Assembly: GCA_028876655.1 (NCBI GenBank)
Contig: JAGWRA010000139.1
Span: 1-49,786, forward strand
Source of the DNA: Acidobacteriota bacterium
Lineage (GTDB): Bacteria > Acidobacteriota > Vicinamibacteria > Vicinamibacterales > CAVVIG01
Reading direction: 5' to 3'
Length of the DNA: 49,786 bases
Each line of letters starts with the position of its first letter. The first letter of the stretch is position 1. Positions 36,133-49,786 of this stretch are shown piece after piece. The translations under genes and the position numbers were made by a program. Under the pieces are notes generated by a model that was not told the DNA's origin, searched no databases, and saw only the letters and a list, made by a program, of their open reading frames with translations.

Positions 36133-37602
36133 ATGCCGCGCCAGACCGCCAGCCTCCCGGGTCTCACGCTCACGCCCCACAGCGATCGTCCGCTCGCCCG
36201 CCAGCTGGCGTCGGCGCTGCGCGAGTCGATGCTGTCCGGACAGCTGGGGCCGGGCGCCCGGCTGCCGTCGACGCGGCTGCTCGCGGGCGAACTCGGCGTC
36301 TCGCGCAACACCGTCCTCGAGGCCTACGCCGAGCTGCTCGCCGAGGGCTATCTGGAAGGGCAGATCGGTTCAGGCACGTTCGTCTCGCGCCTGCTGCCGG
36401 AGGAAGGCCGGGCCGTGGGCCACGCCGACACGGCGGAGGACCTGTCGACGATCGCGCTCTCAGCGCGCGGCGAGCGGATTGCCGGCGTCCGCCATTGGCA
36501 GTCGGGGGTGGAGCTGCGGCCGTTCAATCCGGGCCTGCCGGCGCTCGACCCGGCGCTGTTCGACTTCTGGTGGCGCACGGCCGCGCGCTGGCGCCGGCGA
36601 CTCGGTCCCGCCGAGTTGAACTACGGTGATGCGGCCGGCTACGGTCCGCTGCGGGAAGCGATTGCCGCGTGGGTTGGTCCGTCCCGCGGCGTCCGTTGCA
36701 CGGCCCGCCAGATCATCGTGACGGCCGGCGCCCAGCCGGCGCTGGCGCTGGCCGCGCGGCTGCTGCTCGACGTCGGCGATCAGGCCTGGATGGAGGACCC
36801 GGGCTACGAAGGAGCGAAGGGGGCCCTGATCGCCGCCGGACTGACGCTCGTCCCGGTGCCGGTGGACGATGACGGGCTGGACGTGGACGAGGGGATGGCA
36901 CGCGCGCCGGAGGCGCGGATGGCGTACGTCTCGCCATCGCACCAGTATCCGCTCGGCGTGGTCATGGCGCTGACCCGCCGGCTGCGGCTGCTCGAATGGG
37001 CCGAGCGCGCGGGCGCCTGGATCGTCGAGGACGACTACGATACCGAGTTCCGCTACGGCGGGCGTCCGCTGCCGGCGCTGCAGAGTCTGGACCGCGCATC
37101 GCGCGTCCTCTACGTCGGCACCTTCAGCAAGGTCCTCTTCCCGTCCCTCCGCCTCGGCTACATCGTCGTGCCCGACGAACTCGTCGGGGCGTTCCGCCGC
37201 GCGCAGGCGACCGCCGGCCATCGGCCGTCGACCCTCGATCAGGCGGTTCTGGCCGAGATCCTCGCCAGCGGCCAGTTCATGCGGCACGTCCGCCGCATGC
37301 GCCGCCGCTACGAGCAGCGGCGCGATCTGCTCGATGCGGAGATCCGGCGGCAGCTCGCTCCGTCACTGATGCTCACCGGAGCGCATACCGGTCTGCACGG
37401 CGTCGGCCGCCTGGCGCCCGGCTTCGACGATCGCGACGTCTCGGCGCGCGCCGCAGCCGCTGGCATCAGCGTGCCGCCGCTCTCCGCGTACTACACGGGA
37501 CCGCCCCGCGTCTCCGGCCTCGTGCTCGGGTACGGTCACCTCGACGAGAACGCCATCCGCGCCGGCGTGCGAGCGCTCGCGTCGCTGCTGCGCGCCGGAT
37601 AG
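36133..37602 (+). CDS. MocR/PdxR-type PLP-dependent transcriptional regulator
   Basis: A 489-residue chimeric protein: an N-terminal GntR-type winged helix (residues about 14-80, LPSTRLLAGELGVSRNTVLE and AEGYLEGQIGSGTFV), a linker, and a C-terminal aminotransferase-like domain. The PLP pocket includes Asp in EDDYDTEFRY and the lysine near residue 333 in GTFSKVLFPSLRLGY. These proteins sense PLP, amino acids or GABA. No enzyme gene is directly adjacent in the same direction, so the target may be its own promoter or a distant gene. ATG 36133 has no clear SD, which may mean leaderless or weak translation. Confidence 0.9.
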   Translation: MPRQTASLPGLTLTPHSDRPLARQLASALRESMLSGQLGPGARLPSTRLLAGELGVSRNTVLEAYAELLAEGYLEGQIGSGTFVSRLLPEEGRAVGHADTAEDLSTIALSARGERIAGVRHWQSGVELRPFNPGLPALDPALFDFWWRTAARWRRRLGPAELNYGDAAGYGPLREAIAAWVGPSRGVRCTARQIIVTAGAQPALALAARLLLDVGDQAWMEDPGYEGAKGALIAAGLTLVPVPVDDDGLDVDEGMARAPEARMAYVSPSHQYPLGVVMALTRRLRLLEWAERAGAWIVEDDYDTEFRYGGRPLPALQSLDRASRVLYVGTFSKVLFPSLRLGYIVVPDELVGAFRRAQATAGHRPSTLDQAVLAEILASGQFMRHVRRMRRRYEQRRDLLDAEIRRQLAPSLMLTGAHTGLHGVGRLAPGFDDRDVSARAAAAGISVPPLSAYYTGPPRVSGLVLGYGHLDENAIRAGVRALASLLRAG

Positions 37603-37644: not shown

Positions 37645-40026
37645 TCACCCGCCGTGCGGGGTCGAATGCTCGGGCGAGAGCGGCGCGCCTTTGCTGCGTC
37701 GCAGCAGGACGACCTTCAGGGCGTCGATCGCCGCGAGATAGCCGGCGCCGGCGGCCGCGACGGTCACGATGACGTACGGCGGCAGCGCGGCCATCAACGT
37801 GCCCGTCACGGCCAGCAGGCTGACGAGGCCGATGTCCGCCAGCGAGACCAGCAGCAGCCAGCGGCCGGGCGCCGAATGCCAGAAGTGGGAGCGCTCGCGC
37901 ACCAGGTAGATCATCCCCTGTCCCGTGAAGACCAGGGTGACGAACACGAGCGTGCGCAGCTGCGCCAGCGGCAGGTGCAGCTGCCAGCGGCCCCACGCGA
38001 AGATCCCCAGCGACAGCCCGAGCACGCAGGCGCCGAGGGCCAGCCCGACGCGGGTCAGGGTGCCGACGTGCCAGTGGTCGGGCCGGGGCGAGAAGGAGAC
38101 GCGGTCGGTCGCAATCGCCATGGTGGCGAAGTCGTTGGTGAAGAGCAGCAGCACGATGAGCGGGGGCGTGATGATCAGGGCGTGCGCCAGCACCACGCCG
38201 ATGGTCAGGAAGAAGCCGATCTCGACGGTCTTGATGATCTTGTTCAGCGTGTAGGTCACCATCCGCTGGTAGACGCGGCGGCTGGTCTCGACGGCCGCGA
38301 TCATGTCGCTCAGACCGGGGTTGGTGAGCACGAGGCTCGCCGCCGACTTGGCCACGTCGGTCGCGCTCGCCACCGCGATGCCGACTTCTGCCTGCCGGAG
38401 CGCTGGCGCATCGTTCACGCCGTCCCCGGTCATCCCCACGAGGTGGCCCTCCCGCTGCAGCGCCCGGATCAGCGTGAACTTGTCCTCGGGCAGCGCCTCC
38501 GCCCGCACGTCGTACTGCAGCGCGTCTCCGGTCGCACGCCCCGGATCCTCGAAGCGCTGCGCGGTCGCCCGATTGCCGAGGCCGACCCGTGCCGCCACGG
38601 CCCGTGCCGTCGCCAGGCCGTCGCCGGTGATCATGATCACGCGCACGCCGAGCGCCCGCAGGGCGCCGATCGTCTGCGCCGAGTCGGGGCGAGGCGGGTC
38701 CTGGAGCGCGACGAGGCCTGCCAGGGCGAGGCGCTCCCCGCGGCCCTCGGCGACCGCGAGCACCCGTGAGCCTGTGGACGCCAGCCGTTCGACGTCGGCG
38801 GCCAGCGTGGCCGGAACCGCCGCCAGGCGCCGCGCGACCGCCTGCGGCGCCCCCTTGACGATGTGCTGCCCCGGTCCGTCGTCCGCGACGATGGATTCGG
38901 CCGTCTTCGTGGCCGGGTCGAACGGAATCAGCGTGCGAGGCGAAGGCGGTGCCGCAGGCACGCCCCGATCGCGCGCGGCGGTCAGCACGGCGAGGTCGAT
39001 GGGATCCTGGGTCGCCGCGTCGCTGGCCCACGCGGCGAGGCGCAGCAGGTCGATCTCGCTGTAGGGCGGACAGGGCTGCAGCGCGGCCACGGCGAGCCGG
39101 TTCTGCGTGAGCGTCCCGGTCTTGTCGGTGCACAGGACGTCCATCCCTGCGGCATCTTCGATGGCCGAGAGCCGCGTGGTCAGCACGCCCCGCCGCGCCA
39201 GTTCGAGCGAGCCGAGGGCCGTCGCCAGCGTGAAGGTCGCCGGCAGCGCCGCCGGGACGGAGGCGACGAGCAGGATCAGCGCGAAGGGGAGCACGTCGGC
39301 GAACGGCAGCTTCGTGGCGGCCGCGTACACGAGCAGGACGACCACGAGAGCACCGTCGAGCGCGAGCATGTAGCGGACGATGGTGAAGATGAGGGCGGAG
39401 AGGTGACTGGCCCGCGTGGCGTGACCGACGAGCTGCGCCGTGCGGCCGAAGACGGTCCGGTCGCCCGTGGCCGTCACTTCGCCGCTCGCCTCGCCGCGCT
39501 TCACGACCGCGCCGGCACGCGCCAGGGCCCCCGGGCCGGCGTCGGCCGCCACCGACTCGCCCGTGAGCATCGACTGGTCGAGCAGAATCGCGCCGTCACG
39601 CAGGGTGACGTCGGCAGGGACGATGTCGCCCAGCCGCAGGTGGACGAAGTCGCCTGGCACGAGCGCCTCGGTGGGGACCTCGCGCCACTCGCCGTCGCGC
39701 CGCACGCGCGCGTGCAGCGACAGCCGCGCGCGCAGCCGCTGCAGCGCGCGATTCGCCCGTCCCTCCTGGATCAGGCTGAGCGCGACGTTGAACAGCAGCA
39801 GGAGGCCGATGATGCCCGCCTCGAAGCGGCGCCCGAGCAGCAGTTCGAGGACGACCGTCGCTTCGAGCATCCACGGCACCGGCGCCCAGAACCGGCCGAC
39901 GAATGCCAGGAGCGGGTGCGGCTTCGCTTCGGTCACCGCGTTCGGCCCGTACTGAAGCAGGCGGGCGGCGGCGTCCTGGCTGCTGAGGCCGGGAGAAGGG
40001 CCGGTGGACTCAACGGGCGGGGGCAC
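37645..40026 (-). CDS. P3A-type plasma-membrane proton ATPase
   Basis: A 793-residue P-type ATPase. The FWAPVPWMLE hallmark of P3A pumps is in TM1, followed by the actuator motif TGES, the ion-path helix ASVPAALPATFTLA (the archaeal/bacterial P3A form), the phosphorylated Asp301 in DKTGTLT, and MITGDGLATARAVA and GDGVNDAPAL for ATP binding. Known members export protons and are normally fungal, plant or archaeal, with scattered bacterial copies. I chose GTG 40026 because GGAGG is 9 nt upstream, and TTG 40044 is the alternative. Its start overlaps the 3' end of the LLM gene by 17 bp, so the two are co-transcribed. Confidence 0.88.
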   Translation of the reverse strand: MPPPVESTGPSPGLSSQDAAARLLQYGPNAVTEAKPHPLLAFVGRFWAPVPWMLEATVVLELLLGRRFEAGIIGLLLLFNVALSLIQEGRANRALQRLRARLSLHARVRRDGEWREVPTEALVPGDFVHLRLGDIVPADVTLRDGAILLDQSMLTGESVAADAGPGALARAGAVVKRGEASGEVTATGDRTVFGRTAQLVGHATRASHLSALIFTIVRYMLALDGALVVVLLVYAAATKLPFADVLPFALILLVASVPAALPATFTLATALGSLELARRGVLTTRLSAIEDAAGMDVLCTDKTGTLTQNRLAVAALQPCPPYSEIDLLRLAAWASDAATQDPIDLAVLTAARDRGVPAAPPSPRTLIPFDPATKTAESIVADDGPGQHIVKGAPQAVARRLAAVPATLAADVERLASTGSRVLAVAEGRGERLALAGLVALQDPPRPDSAQTIGALRALGVRVIMITGDGLATARAVAARVGLGNRATAQRFEDPGRATGDALQYDVRAEALPEDKFTLIRALQREGHLVGMTGDGVNDAPALRQAEVGIAVASATDVAKSAASLVLTNPGLSDMIAAVETSRRVYQRMVTYTLNKIIKTVEIGFFLTIGVVLAHALIITPPLIVLLLFTNDFATMAIATDRVSFSPRPDHWHVGTLTRVGLALGACVLGLSLGIFAWGRWQLHLPLAQLRTLVFVTLVFTGQGMIYLVRERSHFWHSAPGRWLLLVSLADIGLVSLLAVTGTLMAALPPYVIVTVAAAGAGYLAAIDALKVVLLRRSKGAPLSPEHSTPHGG

Positions 40027-41026
40027 GGCCGAAGGCCTCCGCAATCAGCGCGTATGACCGGCAGCGCGCTTCGTGATCGTAGGTGATGGTCACGATCATG
40101 AGCTCGTCGGCCCCGTATTCCGCGGCCACCGCCTCGAGGCCCCGCCGGACGGTCGCGGGCGACCCGATCACCGCGCGGCGTCGCCGCGGGGCTCGCGGGC
40201 CTTCGCACGACTCGCGCGCCGCCAGGAAGCGGAGCGCCTTCTCGACCGGCGGTACGGGGATGAGCTCGCCCTGGTGGAGCAGCGCAAACGCCATCCGGCC
40301 GCTCGCTGCCAGCCGCTCGGCCTCGTCGTCCGTCTCGGCGCAAATCGCCGAGACGCAGACGATGACCTCGGGTGCCGCGCGGACGCCGGACGGGACGAAG
40401 GTGTCGCGGTAGCGGCGCGCATAGTCGGCGCCTTCGGGATTGATGAAGTCGGCGAAGGCGTACGGCAGGCCGATCTCCGCGGCCCACAACCCGCTCTGCG
40501 GCGAGGAGCCGAGCAGCCACGGCTCGGGCCGGTGCGCCCCGCCCGGCAACGCGGCGAGCCGTGCGAAGCGATGGCCGGCCGGGAACCGGTCGTAGAGGTA
40601 GGCGAGCAGCTCGGCCAGTTGCTGCGGGAAGTCGTCGGGTGCCGCCTGCCGGCGATCGCGCTGCAGCGCGAAGGTCGTGAGCGGGTCGGTGCCGGCGGCG
40701 CGGCCGAGGCCCAGATCGATCCGGCCGGGATGCAGGGCTGAGAGGAGGCTGAAGACCTCGGCCACCTTCAGCGGGCTGTAGTGGGGCAGCATGACGCCGC
40801 CGCTGCCGACGCGGAGGCGCGTGGTCGCGGCCGCGATCGCGCCGATCAGGATCTCGGGGGCCGCCCCGGCCAGCATCGGCGTCCCGTGGTGCTCGGCCAC
40901 CCAGTACCGGTGATAGCCTAGAGCCTCGGCGCGCCGGGCCAGGTCGATCGTTCGCTGCAGCGCCTCGCCGCCAGTCGACCCGTCCGCAATCGGCGACTGG
41001 TCCAGCACACTCACCCGCAGACTCAC
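40010..41026 (-). CDS. Luciferase-like flavin monooxygenase family protein
   Basis: A 338-residue LLM-class oxidoreductase (bacterial luciferase-like TIM barrel, YtmO/MsnO branch). LDQSPIADGSTGGEAL, YWVAEHHGTPMLAGAAPEILIG (given here in two parts) and LGLGRAAGTDP mark the FMN site and substrate loop. The cofactor is FMNH2, and substrates include alkanals, sulfur compounds and others; the sequence does not choose. I placed the start at GTG 41026, with GAGGAG about 9 nt upstream. It overlaps the P3A ATPase start, giving a redox enzyme and an H+ pump on one transcript. Confidence 0.87.
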   Translation of the reverse strand: MSLRVSVLDQSPIADGSTGGEALQRTIDLARRAEALGYHRYWVAEHHGTPMLAGAAPEILIGAIAAATTRLRVGSGGVMLPHYSPLKVAEVFSLLSALHPGRIDLGLGRAAGTDPLTTFALQRDRRQAAPDDFPQQLAELLAYLYDRFPAGHRFARLAALPGGAHRPEPWLLGSSPQSGLWAAEIGLPYAFADFINPEGADYARRYRDTFVPSGVRAAPEVIVCVSAICAETDDEAERLAASGRMAFALLHQGELIPVPPVEKALRFLAARESCEGPRAPRRRRAVIGSPATVRRGLEAVAAEYGADELMIVTITYDHEARCRSYALIAEAFGRAPAR

Positions 41027-41197: not shown

Positions 41198-41259
41198 TCA
41201 ACTGGCAGGCGACTCCGGCTGCGCTTGTCGGGCACCGCGCTTTGTGCCATGGTGGCGGT

Positions 41260-42372
41260 ATGGATCGCCGCGAAACGGAGCGGCTGCTGTCGGCCATCGG
41301 CGACGTCCGCGCGCGCGGCGCGCGCGCGGCGCTGGCGACGGTGATCCGTGTGCGCGGCAGTGCCTACCGGCGCGAAGGGGCGCACATGCTCGTGCGCGAG
41401 ACCGGTGCCTGGGACTGTGCCCTCTCCGGCGGCTGCCTCGAGCCGGCGGTCGCCGACGCCGCGGCGCGCGTCCTGGCCGGCGGCGAGCCGGTCGTCCTCG
41501 CCTACGACCTCCAGGACGACTCGGTCTGGGGCCTCGGCATCGGCTGTACCGGGGCCGTCGACATCCGCATCGAGCGCCTCGACGACGATCCCGTCACGCG
41601 CGCCTGGCTCGGGGTCCTCGAACGGGCGGAGCCCGCGGTGCTGGTCACGTGCCTCGACGGCACGCCTGGCCGCCTGCTCGTTCACGGCGCCGGTGGCACC
41701 ATCGGCGGTCTGTCGGACGACTCGCTGGACCGCCGGGCGGCCGCGCGGGCGCGCGAGCGGCTGCGCGAGGTCCTCGCGGGGTCTGGCACCGAGTCGATCG
41801 ACGGACGCGAGCTGTTCTTCGAGGTGGCGCTGCCGCCGCCCGTGCTCACCGTCTTCGGGGCCGGCTTCGACGCCGAACCGCTCGTCCGCCAGGCGTGGGC
41901 CGTCGGCTTTGCGGTCACGGTCATCGATCCCCGCGATGCCTTCCTCGTCCCGTCCCGCTTCCCCGGCGCCACGCTCGTCTCCAGTCACCCTGAGACGTTC
42001 GCCGGGCGCGTGGCCCTGCCGGCCGGCGGCTTCGTCGTGATCATGAACCATCACCTCGCGCGGGATCGCGAGAGCCTCCGGTTCGCGCTGGCCTCGCGCA
42101 CCGCCTATGTCGGCCTGCTCGGCCCGCGGGCCCGCTACGAGCGGCTGCTGTCCGACCTGGCCGCGGACGGATACGTCCCGGCGGCCGCCGACCTGGCGCG
42201 CGTGCGAAGCCCGATCGGCCTCGCGCTTGGCGCGGAGACGGCCGAGGAAGTGGCGCTGTCGATCGTGAGCGAGCTGGTGGCGGTGCGGAACGGGTTCGAG
42301 GGCGGCGCGCTCCGCGGCACGGCCGGCAGTCTTCATCGTTCCGCCGGCAGGCGGCTGCTGGCGCGCTCGTAG
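41260..42372 (+). CDS. XdhC/CoxF-family molybdoenzyme maturation factor
   Basis: A 370-residue two-domain XdhC-family protein. The N-terminal XdhC_CoxI domain has the family's GGCLE motif (LSGGCLEPAVADAA), and the C-terminal Rossmann-like XdhC_C domain begins at VLTVFGAGFDAEPLV. These proteins bind the molybdenum cofactor and help insert or sulfurate it in xanthine and CO dehydrogenases. A second family member with an additional YHS domain is part of the cox operon at 47211, so this copy may handle a general step. ATG 41260 lacks a clear SD. Its 3' end overlaps the convergent MocA-like gene by 40 bp. Confidence 0.88.
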   Translation: MDRRETERLLSAIGDVRARGARAALATVIRVRGSAYRREGAHMLVRETGAWDCALSGGCLEPAVADAAARVLAGGEPVVLAYDLQDDSVWGLGIGCTGAVDIRIERLDDDPVTRAWLGVLERAEPAVLVTCLDGTPGRLLVHGAGGTIGGLSDDSLDRRAAARARERLREVLAGSGTESIDGRELFFEVALPPPVLTVFGAGFDAEPLVRQAWAVGFAVTVIDPRDAFLVPSRFPGATLVSSHPETFAGRVALPAGGFVVIMNHHLARDRESLRFALASRTAYVGLLGPRARYERLLSDLAADGYVPAAADLARVRSPIGLALGAETAEEVALSIVSELVAVRNGFEGGALRGTAGSLHRSAGRRLLARS

Positions 42373-42926
42373 TCGGCCGGCGTGTCGATGTCGAAGAGCT
42401 TCCCGGGGTCGAACGGCAGGACGACCGTTCCCTCCCGGTGGCGCTGCAGCACGGGCCGCGCGCCATGTTCCAGGGCGGCGAGCTCGGGGAACAGCGCGCG
42501 GGCGAAGAGGTGGGGCGGCGCCGTGATGTCGCCGTAGCGGACGCTGACGATGGGCGGCCGCTCCGCGCGCCAGACCTCGAGCAGGCGGCGGTAGTCGTCG
42601 GCGGTCAGGAACGGCTGGTCCGCGAGTGCGAACAGCGCGGCCGCGCTGGCGGGCAGGTGGGCGACGGCGGTCCGGAACGAGCTGCCCATGCCGGTCGCGA
42701 AGTCCGCGTTCAGCGCGTGACGGATCGGCAGTCCGTCGAGGGCGGCGAGGACCTGCTCGTGGTGACTGCCGACGATGACGAGCACCTCGTCGTAGCCGGC
42801 GTCGCAGACGAGCCGGACGATCCGGCGGACGAGCGGTTCGCCGCCGAGCGGCAGCAGCAGTTTCGGCCGGCCCATCCGTGTGGAGGCGCCGGCGGCGAGC
42901 ACCACGGCGCTGATCGCGTCGCCCAT
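42333..42926 (-). CDS. mocA: Molybdenum cofactor nucleotidyltransferase, MocA-like
   Basis: A 197-residue GT-A-fold nucleotidyltransferase of the MobA/MocA group. LAAGASTRMGRPKLLLPLGG is the nucleotide and phosphate-binding start, LADQPFL holds the metal Asp, and the C-terminal FDIDTPADYERA is typical of the MocA/CoxC branch. MocA attaches CMP to the molybdenum cofactor (making MCD) for enzymes of the xanthine oxidase family, including CO dehydrogenase; its position beside the cox operon fits that. The tail overlaps the xdhC gene on the other strand. The -10-like TATACT lies only 8 bp before the ATG, so the mRNA may be leaderless. Confidence 0.87.
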   Translation of the reverse strand: MGDAISAVVLAAGASTRMGRPKLLLPLGGEPLVRRIVRLVCDAGYDEVLVIVGSHHEQVLAALDGLPIRHALNADFATGMGSSFRTAVAHLPASAAALFALADQPFLTADDYRRLLEVWRAERPPIVSVRYGDITAPPHLFARALFPELAALEHGARPVLQRHREGTVVLPFDPGKLFDIDTPADYERASSRLPAER

Positions 42927-43022: not shown

Positions 43023-43901
43023 GTGATACCCGCAGCCTTCGACTACATCCGCGCGCATTCCCCCGACGAGGCCTTCAGCCACCTGCAGCAGCACGGCGGT
43101 GACGCGCGCGTGCTGGCCGGCGGCCAGAGCCTCATCCCGGCCATGCGCTTCCGCCTGGCCCGGCCGGCCGTGCTGGTCGACATCAACGGTCTGGCCGACC
43201 TGGGCCGCCTCGAGCTGGGCAGGACGGCGCTGGCCATCGGCGCCATCGCCCGCGACAGCGCGATCGAGCGCGCGCCGTGGATCGGCGAGACGCGCTGGAG
43301 CCTGTTGCACGACGTCTCCCGCGTGGTCGCCGATCCGGTCGTGCGGCAGATGGGGACGGTCGTCGGCAGCCTGTGCCACAACGATCCGTCCGGCGACTGG
43401 ACGGCGGTGGCCCTCGCCGCCCGCGCCGCCGTGGTCGTCCGCGGCAGGCAGGGGACGCGCACGGTGCCGATCGACGACTTCCTGGTCGACAGTTTCACGA
43501 CGGCCGTCGGCGAAGGCGAGATGGCGCTGGCCGTCCACTTCCCGGTCCCGGGCGATCGAACGGCCGGCTCCTACCAGAAGGTCGAGCGGAAGGTGGGCGA
43601 CTTCGCGACCGCCGCAGCGGCCGTGCAGGTCACGCTCGACGGCAAGGGCGCGATCAAGGAAGCCGGCATCGCGTTGTCGGCCGCCGGTCCGTGCGCCGTC
43701 CGCGTGACGGAGGCCGAGCAGGCGCTGGTCGGCCAGAAGCCGACCGCGGACGTCATCCGTGCCGCAGCCGACGCGGCCTCGAAGCGGAGCGAACCGCAGG
43801 CCGACCTGCGGGGCAGCGTCGAGTACAAGAAGAACCTGGCGGGCGTGCTCGTGGCCCGCGGTCTGCGCCAGGCCCTGGCGCGTCTGGGGGTGCAGGCATG
43901 A
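43023..43901 (+). CDS. coxM: CO dehydrogenase medium (FAD-binding) subunit CoxM
   Basis: A 292-residue FAD subunit of the CO dehydrogenase/xanthine oxidase family. AGGQSLIPAMRF and VVGSLCHNDPSGDW are the two loops that bind the FAD pyrophosphate and flavin, and QKVERKVGDFATAAAAVQV begins the C-terminal domain. Electrons from the Mo site pass through the CoxS iron-sulfur clusters to this FAD and on to the quinone pool. GTG 43023 has AGGAGG about 9 nt upstream. The stop overlaps the coxS start (ATGA). Gene order M-S-L is the standard cox order. Confidence 0.93.
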   Translation: MIPAAFDYIRAHSPDEAFSHLQQHGGDARVLAGGQSLIPAMRFRLARPAVLVDINGLADLGRLELGRTALAIGAIARDSAIERAPWIGETRWSLLHDVSRVVADPVVRQMGTVVGSLCHNDPSGDWTAVALAARAAVVVRGRQGTRTVPIDDFLVDSFTTAVGEGEMALAVHFPVPGDRTAGSYQKVERKVGDFATAAAAVQVTLDGKGAIKEAGIALSAAGPCAVRVTEAEQALVGQKPTADVIRAAADAASKRSEPQADLRGSVEYKKNLAGVLVARGLRQALARLGVQA

Positions 43902-44383
43902 AGGTCACGATCACGGTGAACGGCACGCCGTACACGCGCGACGTCGAGCCGCGCACGCTGCTCGCCTACTTCCTGCGCGAGCACTGCGGGCTCACCGGCA
44001 CGCACGTCGGCTGCGATACGTCGAGCTGCGGCTGCTGCGTGGCGGTGCTCGACGGCCAGACGGCGGTGAAGACCTGCACGATGTTCGCGGTGCAGGCCGA
44101 CGGCCACGAGATCCTCACGGTCGAGGGGCTCGCGGCGGGCGGCGCCCTGCACCCGATCCAGCAGGCGTTCTCCGATCAGCACGGGCTGCACTGCGGCTAC
44201 TGCACGCCCGGCATGATGCTGACCACCGTTGCGCTCCTCAAGCACACGCCGGCGCCGACCGAGGCCCAGATCCGCGAGGGGCTGGCGGGGAACCTGTGCC
44301 GGTGCACCGGCTACAACAACATCGTGAAGGCCGTGCAGCAGGCCGCCGACGTGCTGCGCCAGCCGGCCGCGGCCACCAAGTGA
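43898..44383 (+). CDS. coxS: CO dehydrogenase small (2Fe-2S) subunit CoxS
   Basis: A 161-residue protein with two [2Fe-2S] clusters. The plant-type N-terminal cluster uses Cys39, Cys44, Cys47 and Cys60 (GCDTSSCGCC region), and the C-terminal helical cluster uses Cys99, Cys102, Cys134 and Cys136 (HCGYCTPG and LCRCTGY). It carries electrons from the Mo-Cu site in CoxL to FAD in CoxM. Its start overlaps coxM (ATGA), and coxL follows after 21 bp. Confidence 0.95.
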   Translation: MKVTITVNGTPYTRDVEPRTLLAYFLREHCGLTGTHVGCDTSSCGCCVAVLDGQTAVKTCTMFAVQADGHEILTVEGLAAGGALHPIQQAFSDQHGLHCGYCTPGMMLTTVALLKHTPAPTEAQIREGLAGNLCRCTGYNNIVKAVQQAADVLRQPAAATK

Positions 44384-44404: not shown

Positions 44405-46768
44405 ATGAGTGCTGATGTGAAGGCAGGACATGCGATCGGCGTCGCGATGAAGCGCAAGGAGGATCCGCGCTTCGTCCAGGGCAAGGGACACTACGTCGAC
44501 GACTTCTCGTTCCCCGGCATGCTGTTCATGGCGCTGGTCCGCAGCCCGTATCCGCATGCCACCATCAAGAGCATCGACATCTCGGCGGCAATGAAGGTGC
44601 CGGGGGTCAAGGCCGTCATCACCGGCAAGGACCTCGAGGCCGCCGGCCTGGGCTGGCTGCCGACCTTCCACGGCCTCGACAAGCAGATGGTGCTGGCCAT
44701 CGGCAAGGTGCTGTTCCAGTACCAGGAAGTGGCGGCCGTCTTCGCCGAGTCGCGCGAGGCGGCGGCCGACGGCGCCGAGCAGGTGCAGGTCGACTACGAC
44801 CCGCTGCCGGTCGTCGCCGATCCGTTCGCGTCGAAGACCGACACGGTGCTCCTGCGGCCCGATCGCGAGCAGAAGACGAACCACATCTATCACTGGGAGG
44901 TCGGCGATCGGGACAGGACCGACCAGACGCTCGCGAAGAGCGCGAAGCGGGTGAAGCAGCGGATCTGGTTCCAGCGCTGCCATCCGGCGCCGCTCGAGCC
45001 GTGCGGCTGCGTGGCGTTCTTCGACACGATGGGCCGCCTGCAGTTCTACGTGACCTCGCAGGCGCCGCACGTCTACCGCACCGCGCTGTCGCTCGTCACC
45101 GGCATCCCCGAGGACCGGATCCACGTGATCTCGCCCGACATCGGCGGCGGGTTCGGCAACAAGGTCCCCGTCTATCCCGGCTACGTCTGCGCGGTGGTCG
45201 GCGCGTTGAAGCTGGGCCATCCGGTCAAGTGGATCGAGACGCGCACCGAGAACCTCACGAGCACCGGCTTCGCGCGCGACTACCACATGGACGTCGAACT
45301 GGGCGCGACCGCCGACGGGAAGCTGACGGCCGTCAAGGTGGCGACGACGGCGGACCACGGGGCGTTCGACTGTGCGGCCGATCCCACGAAGTATCCGGCC
45401 GGCATGTTCGGCATCTGCACCGGCAGCTACGACGTGCCGGTGGCCCACGCCGAGGTCGACGCCTACTTCACGAACAAGGCGCCCGGCGGCATCGCCTACC
45501 GCTGCTCGTTCCGCGTGACCGAGGCGAGCTACGCCATCGAGCGGACGATGGACGTCCTGGCCGACGAGCTGGGGATCGACGCCGTGGAGCTGCGGCGGAA
45601 GAACTTCGTGAAGAAGGAGCAGTTCCCCTACGCGTCGGCGCTGGGCTTCACCTACGACAGCGGCGACTACGAGAAGACGCTGCAGAAGGCGCTCGACACG
45701 ATCGGCTACCAGGCGCTGCTGAAGGAGCAGCAGGAGAAGCGCGCCCGCGGCGAGCTGATGGGGATCGGCTTCTCGACCTTCACCGAGGTCGTGGGGGCCG
45801 GGCCGTCGAAGCACTTCGACATCCTCGGCATCAAGATGTTCGACAGCGCCGAGATCCGCATCCATCCCACCGGCGCCGGCATCGTCCGGGCCGGGACGAA
45901 GTCGCAGGGGCAGGGGCACGAGACCACCTGGGCCCAGATCGTCGCCGAGGAACTCGGCCTCGACCCGCAGCAGATCATGGTCGAGGAGGGCGACACCGAC
46001 ACGGCGCCGTACGGGCTGGGGACCTACGCGAGCCGCAGCACGCCGGTGGCCGGCGCGGCGATTGCGATGGCCGCCCGCCGCATCCGCGAGAAGGCGCGCA
46101 AGATCGCCGCCCACCTGCTCGAGGTGGGCGAGGCGGACGTCGAGTGGGTCGACTACAGGTTCCAGGTGAAGGGGGTGCCGGCGAAGACGGTCACGATGAA
46201 GGAGGTCGCCTTCGCCGCGTACACGAACATGGCGCAGAACGAGCCCGGGCTCGAGGCGACCTTCTACTACGACCCGCCGAACATGACGTTCCCCAACGGC
46301 ACCTACGTCGCCGTCGTGGACGTCGACCGCGAGACGGGCGAGGTGAAGGTGCGCCGCTTCCTGGCCGTCGACGACTGCGGCACGATCATCAACCCGATGA
46401 TCGTGGAAGGGCAGGTGCACGGCGGTCTCACCGAGGGGTTCGCCATCGCGTTCATGCAGGAGATCCAGTACGACGCCGACGGCAACAACCTGAACACCAA
46501 CTTCACCGACTACCTCGTGCCGACCGCGCAGGAGGCGCCGCACTGGGAGACGGCTCAGACCGTGACGCCGAGCCCGCACCATCCGATCGGCGCCAAGGGC
46601 GTGGGCGAGAGCCCGAACGTCGGCAGCCCGGCGGCGTTCGTGAACGCCGTCGTCGACGCGCTGTCGCCGCTCGGCGTGCGCCACCTCGAGATGCCGGTGA
46701 CGCGCGAGAAGGTGTGGCGCGCCATCCGCGAGGCGGAGGCGGGGAAGGGAAAGGCGGCCCGGACGTGA
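44405..46768 (+). CDS. coxL: Form I carbon monoxide dehydrogenase large subunit CoxL
   Basis: A 787-residue molybdopterin subunit that oxidises CO to CO2. AYRCSFR (Cys at residue 367) is the form I signature; its Cys carries the S-Cu-Mo bridge of true aerobic CO dehydrogenases, while form II and other family members have AYRGAGR-type loops. The active-site Glu is in GVGESPNVG (Glu735). GGGFGNK, GQGHETTWAQIVAEE and EEGDTDTAPYG are cofactor-binding segments that match CoxL very closely. N-terminal KEDPRFVQGKGHYVDD is also typical. ATG 44405 lies 21 bp after coxS, and the stop overlaps coxG (GTGA). The enzyme is cytoplasmic and membrane-associated and supplies electrons to respiration. Confidence 0.96.
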   Translation: MSADVKAGHAIGVAMKRKEDPRFVQGKGHYVDDFSFPGMLFMALVRSPYPHATIKSIDISAAMKVPGVKAVITGKDLEAAGLGWLPTFHGLDKQMVLAIGKVLFQYQEVAAVFAESREAAADGAEQVQVDYDPLPVVADPFASKTDTVLLRPDREQKTNHIYHWEVGDRDRTDQTLAKSAKRVKQRIWFQRCHPAPLEPCGCVAFFDTMGRLQFYVTSQAPHVYRTALSLVTGIPEDRIHVISPDIGGGFGNKVPVYPGYVCAVVGALKLGHPVKWIETRTENLTSTGFARDYHMDVELGATADGKLTAVKVATTADHGAFDCAADPTKYPAGMFGICTGSYDVPVAHAEVDAYFTNKAPGGIAYRCSFRVTEASYAIERTMDVLADELGIDAVELRRKNFVKKEQFPYASALGFTYDSGDYEKTLQKALDTIGYQALLKEQQEKRARGELMGIGFSTFTEVVGAGPSKHFDILGIKMFDSAEIRIHPTGAGIVRAGTKSQGQGHETTWAQIVAEELGLDPQQIMVEEGDTDTAPYGLGTYASRSTPVAGAAIAMAARRIREKARKIAAHLLEVGEADVEWVDYRFQVKGVPAKTVTMKEVAFAAYTNMAQNEPGLEATFYYDPPNMTFPNGTYVAVVDVDRETGEVKVRRFLAVDDCGTIINPMIVEGQVHGGLTEGFAIAFMQEIQYDADGNNLNTNFTDYLVPTAQEAPHWETAQTVTPSPHHPIGAKGVGESPNVGSPAAFVNAVVDALSPLGVRHLEMPVTREKVWRAIREAEAGKGKAART

Positions 46769-47214
46769 ACCTGAAGTACAACGGACAGGAGAAGGTCCCG
46801 GCTCCAATGGACGCCGTCTGGGCCTTCGTGCGCGATCCGGACAAGGTCGGCCGCTGCCTGCCGGACGTGGTCGAGGTGACCGTGCACGACCCGCAGCACT
46901 TCGACGCGGTCGTGCAGGTCGCCGTCGGTCCCGTCCGGGGCAAGTTCAAGCTGAAGTTCGAGATGACGGCGAACGAGGCGACCCACCACGTCGACATGAA
47001 GGTGTCGGGGGGCGGGTTCGGCAGCGCCGTCGATCTCACGGCCACCGCCGATCTTGCCGACGGCGGTGCGGGGACGACCCTGCTGAACTGGAGCGGTGAA
47101 GCGATCGCCCGCGGGCCGGTGGCGGCCGTCGGCGGCCGCGTGCTCGACGGCCAGGCGAAGAAGCTGATCGAGCAGACGTTCGCGACGGTGAGCCAGCGGG
47201 TGCGACAGGCATGA
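46765..47214 (+). CDS. coxG: CoxG-like SRPBCC protein (CO dehydrogenase membrane anchor)
   Basis: A 149-residue SRPBCC-fold protein of the CoxG family. LKYNGQEKVPAPMDAVWAFV and the C-terminal helix LIEQTFATVSQRV are typical. In Oligotropha CoxG is needed to anchor CO dehydrogenase to the membrane, and in mycobacteria it has been shown to carry quinone to the enzyme. The GTG start overlaps the coxL stop, and the stop overlaps the next start (ATGA). No C-terminal transmembrane extension is present here; this is the short form. Confidence 0.9.
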   Translation: MNLKYNGQEKVPAPMDAVWAFVRDPDKVGRCLPDVVEVTVHDPQHFDAVVQVAVGPVRGKFKLKFEMTANEATHHVDMKVSGGGFGSAVDLTATADLADGGAGTTLLNWSGEAIARGPVAAVGGRVLDGQAKKLIEQTFATVSQRVRQA

Positions 47215-48224
47215 GCGGCAGGCTCGACGAATTCTTCCGACGCGTCGCGGCGTTGCAGCGCGACGGGCAGCCGTTCGTGATTGCCACGGTCGTGGCGCGG
47301 CGCCCGCCGGTGTCGGCCCACCTGGGCGATCGCGCGATCGTCCTGGCCGACGGCCGGATGGAAGGGTTCGTCGGCGGCGCCTGCTCGCGCGAGATCGTCC
47401 GCCGGCAGGCGCTCGAGGCGCTGGCGGCGCGGCGGGGGCGGCTCGTCTCCATCCGGCCCGACGCGAAGGAGCGGTCGGCCGATGCCGAGCACGTGACCGT
47501 GCCGATGACCTGTGCATCGGAGGGGGCCGTGGATGTCTACGTGGAACCCGTGCTGAACGCGCGACGGCTCGTGATCGCCGGGGCGACCCCGGTGGCCGAT
47601 GCGCTGATGCGGCTCGGCCGCAGTCTGCAGTACGACGTCGTGCGCGTGGTCGACGCGCGCGAGACGAATGACGTGGAGGCCGCGGCCGCGCCCCTGGACG
47701 TGCCGGTGATCACCCTCGACGCACTGGCGGGGCGGCTGGCCGGCCTGCCGCCGGACACCGCGGCCGTCGTCGCGTCGCAGGGGCACTACGACGACGAGGC
47801 GCTCGAGCGGCTGCTGCGGGCCGGCGTGCCGTACGTCGGATTCGTGGCGTCGCGGAAGCGCGGCGCCACGGTGCTCGGGCTGCTGCAGGAGCGGGGCGTG
47901 CCGAACGTCACCGCCGTCCGGAACCCGGCGGGGCTCGACCTCGGCGCCCGAACGCCGCCGGAAGTGGCCCTGTCGGTCCTCGCGGAGATCGTCCAGTGGA
48001 GGCCGGCAGAGGGTCTCGCCGCGGAAGCCGCCTCTGCCGCGGTCCTGCCACCGGCCGCGGCCGCGCCGGCCACGGCCATCGATCCTGTGTGCGGCATGGA
48101 CGTCGACGTCGCCACCGCGACGCACACCGCCGAACTGGACGGCCGGACCTGGTACTTCTGCTGCGGCCACTGCCGCGCCGCCTTCCTCAAGGAGCCGGAC
48201 CGGTACCGGCCGCGGGCGTCATGA
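47211..48224 (+). CDS. coxF: CoxF/XdhC-family maturation factor with C-terminal YHS domain
   Basis: A 337-residue protein. Residues 1 to about 265 are an XdhC/CoxF protein: an N-terminal domain with VGGACSREIVRRQALEAL and a Rossmann-like second part (VLNARRLVIAGATPVADALMRLG), as in CO dehydrogenase maturation. Residues 290-335 form a YHS domain (IDPVCGM from 290, then WYFCCGHC at 314-321), a small Cys-rich fold that binds heavy metals such as copper. A Pro/Ala linker joins the two. CO dehydrogenase needs a Cu-S-Mo site, so a metal-delivery role is plausible but inferred. ATG overlaps the coxG stop, and the stop overlaps the coxD ATG. The other XdhC protein (41260) has no YHS domain. Confidence 0.88.
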   Translation: MSGRLDEFFRRVAALQRDGQPFVIATVVARRPPVSAHLGDRAIVLADGRMEGFVGGACSREIVRRQALEALAARRGRLVSIRPDAKERSADAEHVTVPMTCASEGAVDVYVEPVLNARRLVIAGATPVADALMRLGRSLQYDVVRVVDARETNDVEAAAAPLDVPVITLDALAGRLAGLPPDTAAVVASQGHYDDEALERLLRAGVPYVGFVASRKRGATVLGLLQERGVPNVTAVRNPAGLDLGARTPPEVALSVLAEIVQWRPAEGLAAEAASAAVLPPAAAAPATAIDPVCGMDVDVATATHTAELDGRTWYFCCGHCRAAFLKEPDRYRPRAS

Positions 48225-49171
48225 TCGACGCCACCACGATCCGCGCCCGCTTCCGCGAGCGCGCCTTCATCGTCGACGATGCCTTCGCCACGGCCCTGCA
48301 GGTGATGCTGGCCCTCGAGAAGCCGCTGCTCATCGAGGGGCCGGCCGGCGTCGGCAAGACCGAGACCGCCAAGGTGCTGGCCGCGGCGCTCGACACGCGG
48401 CTCATCCGCCTGCAGTGTTACGAGGGGCTCGACGCGATGGCGGCGCTCTACGAGTGGAACTACCCGCGCCAGATGCTGCGGGCCCGCCTCAGCGAGAGCG
48501 AGGGGACGACGCTCGAGGAGCGCGAGGCGCAGATCTTCAGCGAGACCTTCCTGCTGAAGCGGCCGCTGCTCGAGGCGATCACGCAGGACCGGCCGCCAGT
48601 GCTGCTGATCGACGAGGTGGACCGGGCGGACGAGGCGTTCGAGGCGTTCCTGCTGGAAGTCCTGGCCGAGTGGCAGGTGACGATCCCCGAGCTCGGCACG
48701 ATCCGCGCGCGACAGAAGCCGCGCGTCGTCCTCACCAGCAACCGGACCCGCGAGCTGTCGGACGCCCTGCGCCGCCGCTGCCTGTACCTCTGGCTGCCGT
48801 ACCCGTCGATGGAGCACGAGATCGAGATCCTGCACGCGCGCGTCCCCGGCCTGTCCGACCGGCTGGCGGCGCAGATCGCCCGGATCATGCACGCGCTGCG
48901 CGAGCTGCCGCTGCAGAAGGCGCCGGGCGTGGCCGAAAGCCTGGATTGGGCGATGGCGCTGATGAGCCTGCACCGCGGTCACCTCGACGCGGCGACGCTC
49001 GCGCAGACGCTCGGCTGCATCCTCAAGGTGCACGAGGACCAGCACGTCGTCGAGGCGCACCGCGCCGCGCTCGATCCGATCCTGGGCGGCGGCCCGGAGA
49101 CGACGGCCTCGGGCGGCTACGGCCTGAAGACCGACTTCGGCGTCGGCACGGTCTCGCTGCCGGGCGAGTGA
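48221..49171 (+). CDS. coxD: MoxR-type AAA+ ATPase CoxD
   Basis: A 316-residue MoxR-family AAA+ ATPase. Walker A is GPAGVGKT (40-47), Walker B VLLIDE (127-132), sensor 1 is VVLTSNRTREL, and RRRCLYLWLPYP holds the arginine finger. In Oligotropha, CoxD is the chaperone-like ATPase that drives assembly of the Cu-S-Mo centre (sulfuration step), and CoxE/CoxF act with it. Its start overlaps the coxF stop (ATGA), and its stop overlaps the following start (TGATG), the typical MoxR/VWA pairing. Confidence 0.92.
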   Translation: MIDATTIRARFRERAFIVDDAFATALQVMLALEKPLLIEGPAGVGKTETAKVLAAALDTRLIRLQCYEGLDAMAALYEWNYPRQMLRARLSESEGTTLEEREAQIFSETFLLKRPLLEAITQDRPPVLLIDEVDRADEAFEAFLLEVLAEWQVTIPELGTIRARQKPRVVLTSNRTRELSDALRRRCLYLWLPYPSMEHEIEILHARVPGLSDRLAAQIARIMHALRELPLQKAPGVAESLDWAMALMSLHRGHLDAATLAQTLGCILKVHEDQHVVEAHRAALDPILGGGPETTASGGYGLKTDFGVGTVSLPGE

Positions 49172-49786
49172 TGTACCCGTTCGAGAGCCTTCCCGAGAAC
49201 CTCACGGCTTTCTGCAGCCTGCTTCGCGACGAACACGGCTTCCGCATCGGCGCGCGCGAGCTGCACGACGCGGCACGTGTGCTGGAGGTCGTGCCGATCG
49301 GCGACCAGCAGGCGGTGCGCGATGCGCTCCGGCCGATTCTCTGCAGCCGGCAGGACGATGTCCGTGTGTTCGACCGGGCGTTCACCCGCTTCTTCTTTCC
49401 CGGACCGCCGGGCGTGCCGCAGGCGCGGATGGCGCCGGTCGAGCGGGAGCCAGGAGGAGCATCGCAGCGGCGGCGGGAGGCGACCCGGCGCCGTCCCGTC
49501 CCGACCGCGCCCGGGAGCGCCGACGAGACGGGTGAGGGAGGACGTCCGCAGCCGGTGCCGCTCGACGTCGGCGAGAGCGTGGACGAGGAAGCAGCCGCGA
49601 CCGCGCACGCCGCCTGGAGCCCGATGGAGTCCCCGGCGGGCGAGTCGCCCGCCGTGACGCGGGCGGACGCGCCGTGGCAGGAGGCCGCGCGGGCGTTCGT
49701 GCGGCGGCTGCTCGTCGGGCTCTCGCGCCGGTGGCGGCCGGCACGCCGCGGCCTGCGGTTCGACCTGCGGCGCACGGTGCGGGCGA
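49171..49786 (+). CDS. coxE: CoxE-like VWA protein (5' part, cut by window end)
   Basis: Only the first 205 residues are visible. The N-terminal 70 residues (LPENLTAFCSLLRDEHGFRIGA split, IGDQQAVRDALRPILCS, FDRAFTRFFF) match CoxE/VWA proteins paired with MoxR ATPases, in which the von Willebrand A domain comes later, outside the window. A roughly 90-residue low-complexity, Pro/Glu/Arg-rich linker follows, then the basic RRGLRFDLRRTVRA stretch that precedes the VWA domain in this family. ATG 49171 overlaps the coxD stop by one base (TGATG). With CoxD it would form the CO dehydrogenase assembly chaperone. Confidence 0.82.
   Translation, partial: MYPFESLPENLTAFCSLLRDEHGFRIGARELHDAARVLEVVPIGDQQAVRDALRPILCSRQDDVRVFDRAFTRFFFPGPPGVPQARMAPVEREPGGASQRRREATRRRPVPTAPGSADETGEGGRPQPVPLDVGESVDEEAAATAHAAWSPMESPAGESPAVTRADAPWQEAARAFVRRLLVGLSRRWRPARRGLRFDLRRTVRA

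Follow-up and report, generated by a model that had tools for sequence, protein, structure and literature searches.

The best-described relative of the protein considered here is CoxF of Oligotropha carboxidovorans, a 280-residue protein with an XdhC_CoxI plus XdhC_C core, encoded in a form I cox operon together with coxD, coxE, and coxG, and required for Cu insertion (PMC4240915). Past the core it has just a short tail, with neither a YHS nor an HMA domain. CO dehydrogenase from an Oligotropha coxF::km mutant contained, in mol/mol, 1.85 Mo, 1.40 sulfane S, and 0.043 Cu, the wild-type Cu content being 1.62 (Pelzmann 2014, PMC4240915). In Oligotropha, then, the enzyme acquires Mo and S without CoxF, but its Cu depends on CoxF (PMC4240915). 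It was proposed that CoxF supplies copper by means of a phytase motif and an MCPSHGTM site (Pelzmann 2014, PMC4240915). The XdhC chaperones of xanthine dehydrogenase-type enzymes (structures 2we7/2we8 and 3on5) share the fold of the N-terminal 265 residues of the CoxF described below, but they have no metal-binding tail and no C-x-S insertion, and they fall outside the CoxF clade.

Two kinds of small metal-binding domain also enter the comparison. The YHS domain of the Mycobacterium phlei adenylyl cyclase is C-terminal and tied to a catalytic partner, and copper-specific activation of the cyclase has been shown (PMC4626032). A set of one Asp and three Cys was inferred for this Cu-responsive domain (PMC4626032), and the same set is found in the YHS domains of P1B Cu-ATPases and of CoxF. 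The cyclase and ATPase domains differ from that of CoxF in serving in a sensor or a transporter rather than in enzyme maturation. HMA chaperones of the CopZ/Atx1 type share their fold and an MxCxxC-type motif with the CoxF tail of Rhodothermia, but they are free-standing or are carried on ATPases.

The window, a 49,786-nucleotide contig of an Acidobacteriota genome, ends within a cox operon. Its features, all on the forward strand except where indicated, are as follows.

41242..42372, +: second, ordinary XdhC (CoxI-like), without YHS (Pfam)
42333..42926, −: MocA-like Mo-cofactor nucleotidyltransferase (Pfam NTP_transf_3; TIGR03310 144 bits, under its cut-off)
43023..43901, start approximate, +: coxM, FAD subunit (ORF sequence)
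43898..44383, +: coxS, 2Fe-2S subunit (ORF sequence)
44405..46768, +: coxL, form I CO dehydrogenase large subunit with AYRCSFR (TIGR02416 1179 bits)
46765..47214, +: coxG (SRPBCC/CoxG; Pfam COXG 104 bits; ATGA overlap with coxF)
47211..48224, +: coxF-YHS, intact ORF (Pfam XdhC_CoxI, residues 16–80; XdhC_C Rossmann, 120–260; YHS, 290–334)
47382..47384, +: Cys58 in the GG-x-C of the XdhC domain, a residue conserved across CoxF and ordinary XdhC
47505..47519, +: M-T-C101-A-S103 loop; Cys101 is in nearly all XdhC, and the two-residue C-x-S insertion is typical of CoxF
48003..48074, +: Ala/Pro-rich flexible linker between XdhC and YHS, residues 265–288 (pLDDT below 50 at 277–283)
48078..48212, +: YHS domain with putative ligands D291, C294, C317, and C321, M296 and C318 being near (Pfam; alignment; pLDDT about 94)
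48221..49171, +: coxD, MoxR-type AAA+ ATPase (Pfam AAA_5; MadB-family similarity; ATGA overlap with coxF)
49168..49786, +: 5′ part of coxE, cut by the contig end (ORF; homologues come after coxD in other loci)

The gene order is thus coxM-S-L-G-F-D-E, tightly packed, with coxL two genes upstream of coxF; the stop codons of coxG and of coxF each share an ATGA with the next start. Just upstream of the cox unit lie the ordinary XdhC gene and, on the opposite strand, the MocA-like gene. Kilobases upstream of the operon there is a P-type ATPase gene (DKTGT motif; 37645–40044, − strand), adjoined by a MocR-like regulator gene (36133–37602). The CoxL product scores 1179 bits against TIGR02416, for which the form I cut-off is 991 bits, and its AYRCSFR matches the AYXCSFR active-site motif. 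The fused gene is assigned as coxF on the basis of its XdhC_CoxI and XdhC_C domains, the adjacent form I coxL with coxD and coxE, and its place in the CoxF clade.

The XdhC-YHS fusion reported in the preliminary description is real, and no assembly join. The ORF runs from ATG to TGA, encoding 337 residues with no internal stops, and all three domains score above their Pfam cut-offs: XdhC_CoxI at 58.8 bits, XdhC_C at 89.9 bits, and YHS (PF04945) at 46.6 bits against a gathering cut-off of 30.3. Frameshift or misassembly as the source of the fusion was ruled out by three observations. Two related genomes (G018 and G124) encode orthologues of the same architecture at 60–65% identity, GC3 is nearly equal in the XdhC and YHS parts (0.93 and 0.92), and ATGA overlaps join the gene to both neighbors.

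The two motifs said to form the Cys-rich tail, IDPVCGM and WYFCCGHC, are both present. Together they hold the putative set of one Asp and three Cys, D291, C294, C317, and C321. Among 144 distinct CoxF-YHS sequences, C294, C317, and C321 are kept in all, D291 in 142, and M296 in 141. The AlphaFold model of the protein has a mean pLDDT of 90.9, with the XdhC core and the YHS domain confident and residues 277–283 disordered; the linker ranges from 14 to 153 residues among homologues, with a median of 24. The disordered stretch and the variable linkers suggest a YHS domain that acts as a tethered, mobile carrier. When the whole model was compared with the PDB, the N-terminal 265 residues matched XdhC structures 2we7/2we8 and 3on5 (Z 17.8–19.8), a comparison that tested mainly the Rossmann part. 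The resemblance to the XdhC Moco chaperones consists of the fold and two common cysteines, C58 and C101. In a PDB sequence search the main matches of the YHS domain were to ribosomal L24e, and these were weak. The nearest YHS domains in related genomes are 59–65% identical and include the N-termini of P1B ATPases with CPC, YN, and MxxSS motifs. The host genome has only one other YHS domain (G000:C174:42747-42881), near the N-terminus of an 829-residue P1B ATPase with the same CPC, YN, and MxxSS motifs, which are of the copper type.

How usual is the fusion? The preliminary description held that CoxF ordinarily has no YHS domain, which is true of Oligotropha (PMC4240915) and of a Pseudomonadota sample but not of CoxF at large. 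Across the loci collected, CoxF-type scores were obtained for 173 XdhC proteins, of which three (in L107, L306, and L080) are paralogues without the CoxF insertion; 170 remain. A YHS domain is carried by 147 of the 170; the others are 12 Proteobacterial proteins without a tail, one protein with an HMA domain, four cut by contig ends, and six others. In ordinary XdhC of the collected loci YHS was found in 0 of 44, versus 147 of the 173 CoxF-type proteins, and two low-scoring YHS matches proved to be fragments of broken CoxF genes. Given these counts, the presence of YHS on CoxF-type proteins is not chance. YHS-bearing CoxFs span many bacterial phyla and the archaea.

Part of this collection came from a one-genome-per-species scan with the fusion alignment, from which 80 loci (L070–L149) were kept. 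Being chosen by similarity, this set overstates the fusion's share (71 of 79 CoxF-type proteins have YHS), and hence three other samples were taken. The similarity-chosen loci come from Deinococcota, Chloroflexota, Actinomycetota, Myxococcota, Gemmatimonadota, Bacteroidota, Verrucomicrobiota, a Thermoplasmata MAG, and others. In 249 genomes of Gemmatimonadota, form I CoxL was found in 34; the stretches fetched held 21 CoxF-type proteins, 20 with YHS. In 299 genomes of Pseudomonadota, form I CoxL was found in 13; in 12 of these the stretch also encoded CoxF, always without YHS. Some Burkholderiales do have a plasmid-borne CoxF-YHS (Paraburkholderia aromaticivorans, Caballeronia). The fusion also occurs in cultured organisms, among them Thermomicrobium roseum (TRD_RS11740) and the haloarchaeon Natronorubrum bangense, in which the protein is annotated only as "XdhC family protein". 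It follows from these surveys that CoxF-YHS is the usual CoxF architecture outside most Proteobacteria, not an exception. No paper naming the XdhC-YHS fusion was found in a literature search that covered few subscription journals, so that an earlier mention is possible.

Several loci showed further peculiarities. The form I cox operon of N. bangense, which includes CoxF-YHS, has a DUF364-domain gene right after coxE (L341:9502-10422), possibly a further metal-handling part. In a Bacillota MAG (L148:9935 and 10330) and at L289:2642, CoxF-YHS is truncated or broken into two ORFs, the second of which carries the YHS; this may reflect a frameshift, a pseudogene, or an assembly error. The CoxF of a record titled Gammaproteobacteria SB0675_bin_31 (L140) groups with those of Gemmatimonadota, and its genome was assigned to the phylum of a Gemmatimonadetes MAG, so that the title looks wrong.

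A survey of XdhC-YHS against form I coxL had been proposed as a check, and the two were found to co-occur. Among 396 Acidobacteriota genomes, eight have form I CoxL over the cut-off; CoxF is present in all eight and YHS in seven, the exception (G169) being a CoxF that ends in a CC stub. A further Acidobacteriota genome (G319) has a CoxF of this type and holds a truncated, dense CoxL match. The association of CoxF with form I CoxL in Acidobacteriota has a Fisher p of 6e-16, uncorrected for kinship and, as the genome samples are kin-structured, descriptive. A scan of 246 Actinomycetota genomes gave two-peaked scores; among the matches listed, those reaching into YHS were all CoxF-type and the ordinary XdhC matches ended near residues 260–298.

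At the level of the locus, CoxF-YHS shares a stretch with form I coxL or a fragment of it in 36 of 39 cases in Actinomycetota (a set centred on CoxF; the other three lie at contig edges), in 20 of 20 in Gemmatimonadota (a set centred on coxL), in 12 of 17 in Acidobacteriota, and in 62 of 72 in the similarity-chosen set. Of the remaining CoxF-YHS genes, most are found at the edge of a contig or in a genome that carries form I coxL on a different contig. Where no form I coxL lies within reach of the fusion (L076, L093, and G140/L318), the assembly is fragmented. As far as the assemblies allow, then, the YHS fusions track form I coxL. Fusions beside copper-free molybdoenzymes, which would have spoken against a link to copper, were not found in the loci and phylum samples examined.

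A tree of 209 XdhC domains, quickly built and with its deep forks open, separates CoxF from ordinary XdhC (31 rows) with an SH-aLRT of 99. The window protein falls on the CoxF side together with the Proteobacterial CoxFs, which make up a single clade (99) nested in a larger group (96) that includes YHS- and HMA-bearing CoxFs as well. The ordinary XdhC proteins of other loci are outside the CoxF clade. A small clade of XdhC paralogues, encoded beside CoxF-YHS (L107:7361, L306:5517, and L080:4539), is sister to CoxF; these proteins have neither YHS nor the C-x-S insertion. Because YHS is found across the CoxF clade as a whole, with ordinary XdhC outside it, the simplest interpretation is that YHS was acquired early and later lost or exchanged. 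The Proteobacteria sampled here would have lost it in their common ancestor, and Rhodothermia would have swapped it for HMA, with a few more recent losses elsewhere.

The exchange was seen initially in a Rhodothermales MAG (L138, 9965–11017), where CoxF has no YHS and its last ~60 residues are an HMA domain (Pfam 31.3 bits; cut-off 24.8). A search of 148 Rhodothermia genomes gave seven more CoxFs matching this one over the full length (L328–L334), with HMA scores of 39–45 bits. In all eight, HMA replaces YHS and has the motif M-S-C-x-H-C, and all eight are encoded in form I cox operons. The best solved relatives of these domains are CopA, CopZ, and ATP7B. No mention of HMA on an XdhC protein, or of the Rhodothermia exchange, was found in the literature. 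YHS and HMA are unrelated folds; what would unite them at this position is soft-metal binding, and the HMA appears to be of the copper class. That Rhodothermia swapped YHS for a copper-chaperone domain suggests that the tail is the copper-carrying part of CoxF.

Other CoxFs have lost or reduced the tail. Two Actinomadura proteins without YHS have tails ending in CCHH or HCC; in L302 and L207 there is only a Cys-rich stub, and in L276 and L119 no tail. In Deinococcus sp. AJ005 (L344:5995-7056) the YHS is recognisable, with two of the three ligand cysteines lost (SPVDGE...YYFTCANC); at this locus a TIGR02466-family gene lies between coxG and coxF. No free YHS ORF, as would be expected of split genes, was found near tail-less CoxF in the loci fetched. 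Elsewhere in the genomes with tail-less CoxF (Hoeflea, Phytohabitans, Actinomadura, and the Rhodothermales MAG), the only YHS ORFs were two in Hoeflea, both about 810 residues, the size of a P-type ATPase.

We propose that the window gene encodes the CoxF of a form I Mo-Cu CO dehydrogenase and that its YHS tail is a tethered Cu carrier feeding the Mo-S site, a reading we consider probable. The XdhC-type core would dock on folded apo-enzyme that already holds Mo and S. The YHS domain, on its flexible linker, would take copper from the cytosolic pool through D291, C294, C317, and C321, and pass Cu(I) by way of the substrate channel to the site formed by Mo-S(H) and the Cys of AYRCSFR, perhaps assisted by CoxD, an AAA+ ATPase, and CoxE, a VWA protein. 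The docking role of the core, copper binding by YHS, and delivery of Cu to CO dehydrogenase are all inferred.

The source of copper in Oligotropha, as envisaged by Pelzmann et al., differs: CoxF frees Cu2+ from phytate by the phytase motif and holds it at MCPSHGTM. The lack of Cu in the coxF::km enzyme agrees with this proposal (PMC4240915), but the sequence comparison gives it no support. In the alignment the MCPSHGTM cysteine corresponds to Cys101, a residue that 96% of ordinary XdhC serving copper-free enzymes also have; the neighboring Met is not conserved; and the short basic C-terminus that holds the phytase motif was seen in Proteobacteria alone. For the XdhC core, an M-x-C copper motif (M99-T-C101) was likewise rejected: only 53% of CoxF-YHS have Met at position 99, 83% of Proteobacterial CoxF have Asn there, and C101 is in nearly all XdhC. 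We therefore regard phytate-derived copper held at MCPSHGTM as very improbable, and wherever a tail exists, it is a better candidate for the copper site than either motif. On the other hand, because Oligotropha and all 12 sampled Pseudomonadota CoxFs lack such a tail, the YHS domain is not universally essential. The Deinococcus sp. AJ005 YHS with its two lost ligand cysteines, and the few other CoxFs with no tail or a mere Cys-rich stub, also weigh against it. Tail-less CoxFs such as that of Oligotropha may receive copper from another carrier or have it delivered straight to the core.

That Proteobacterial CoxF works without a tail would also fit a structural or docking module, for example, a zinc knuckle binding CoxD, CoxE, or CoxL, with copper handled by the XdhC core alone. 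Zinc-type relatives within the YHS/TRASH domains count against a copper carrier and in the same direction, the L24e-type TRASH domains having Zn/Cd-type sites (PMC4626032). Docking or zinc binding can hardly explain a swap for an HMA of the CopZ/CopA class, however, and the closest YHS domains sit on Cu-ATPases, so that we think a structural tail unlikely. We give a little less weight still to a tail that is a copper sensor, binding Cu and gating CoxF so that maturation waits for copper, with no donation of the ion: the unrelated HMA fold would need the same allosteric coupling in the same place, and a linker free to vary so widely in length argues against tight coupling of the domains.

With the tail read as a copper carrier, it is tempting to generalize. 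We favor, with some reservation, a view of CoxF as a modular Cu-delivery factor with an exchangeable C-terminal carrier: YHS in most phyla, HMA in Rhodothermia, CC, HCC, or CCHH stubs in a few, and none in the sampled Proteobacteria, where a separate carrier would act. The suggestion in the preliminary description that the fusion is a copper-delivery candidate accordingly stands in part. It fits the sequence tests and the HMA swap, but the fusion is common, the tail is not required everywhere, and CoxF had already been put forward as a copper supplier (PMC4240915). The tail as the copper site and the HMA exchange are new.

Form I CO dehydrogenase has a unique Mo-S-Cu site, and the copper route to this site is known from one organism, whose CoxF is tail-less. 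If the tail is a copper carrier, this step would become directly testable with small soluble domains, and Thermomicrobium roseum and Paraburkholderia would be useful models beside Oligotropha. Production of active CO dehydrogenase in heterologous hosts could then use a CoxF with its own carrier, and an XdhC-YHS or XdhC-HMA fusion would serve as a sequence marker for the copper enzymes of the family.
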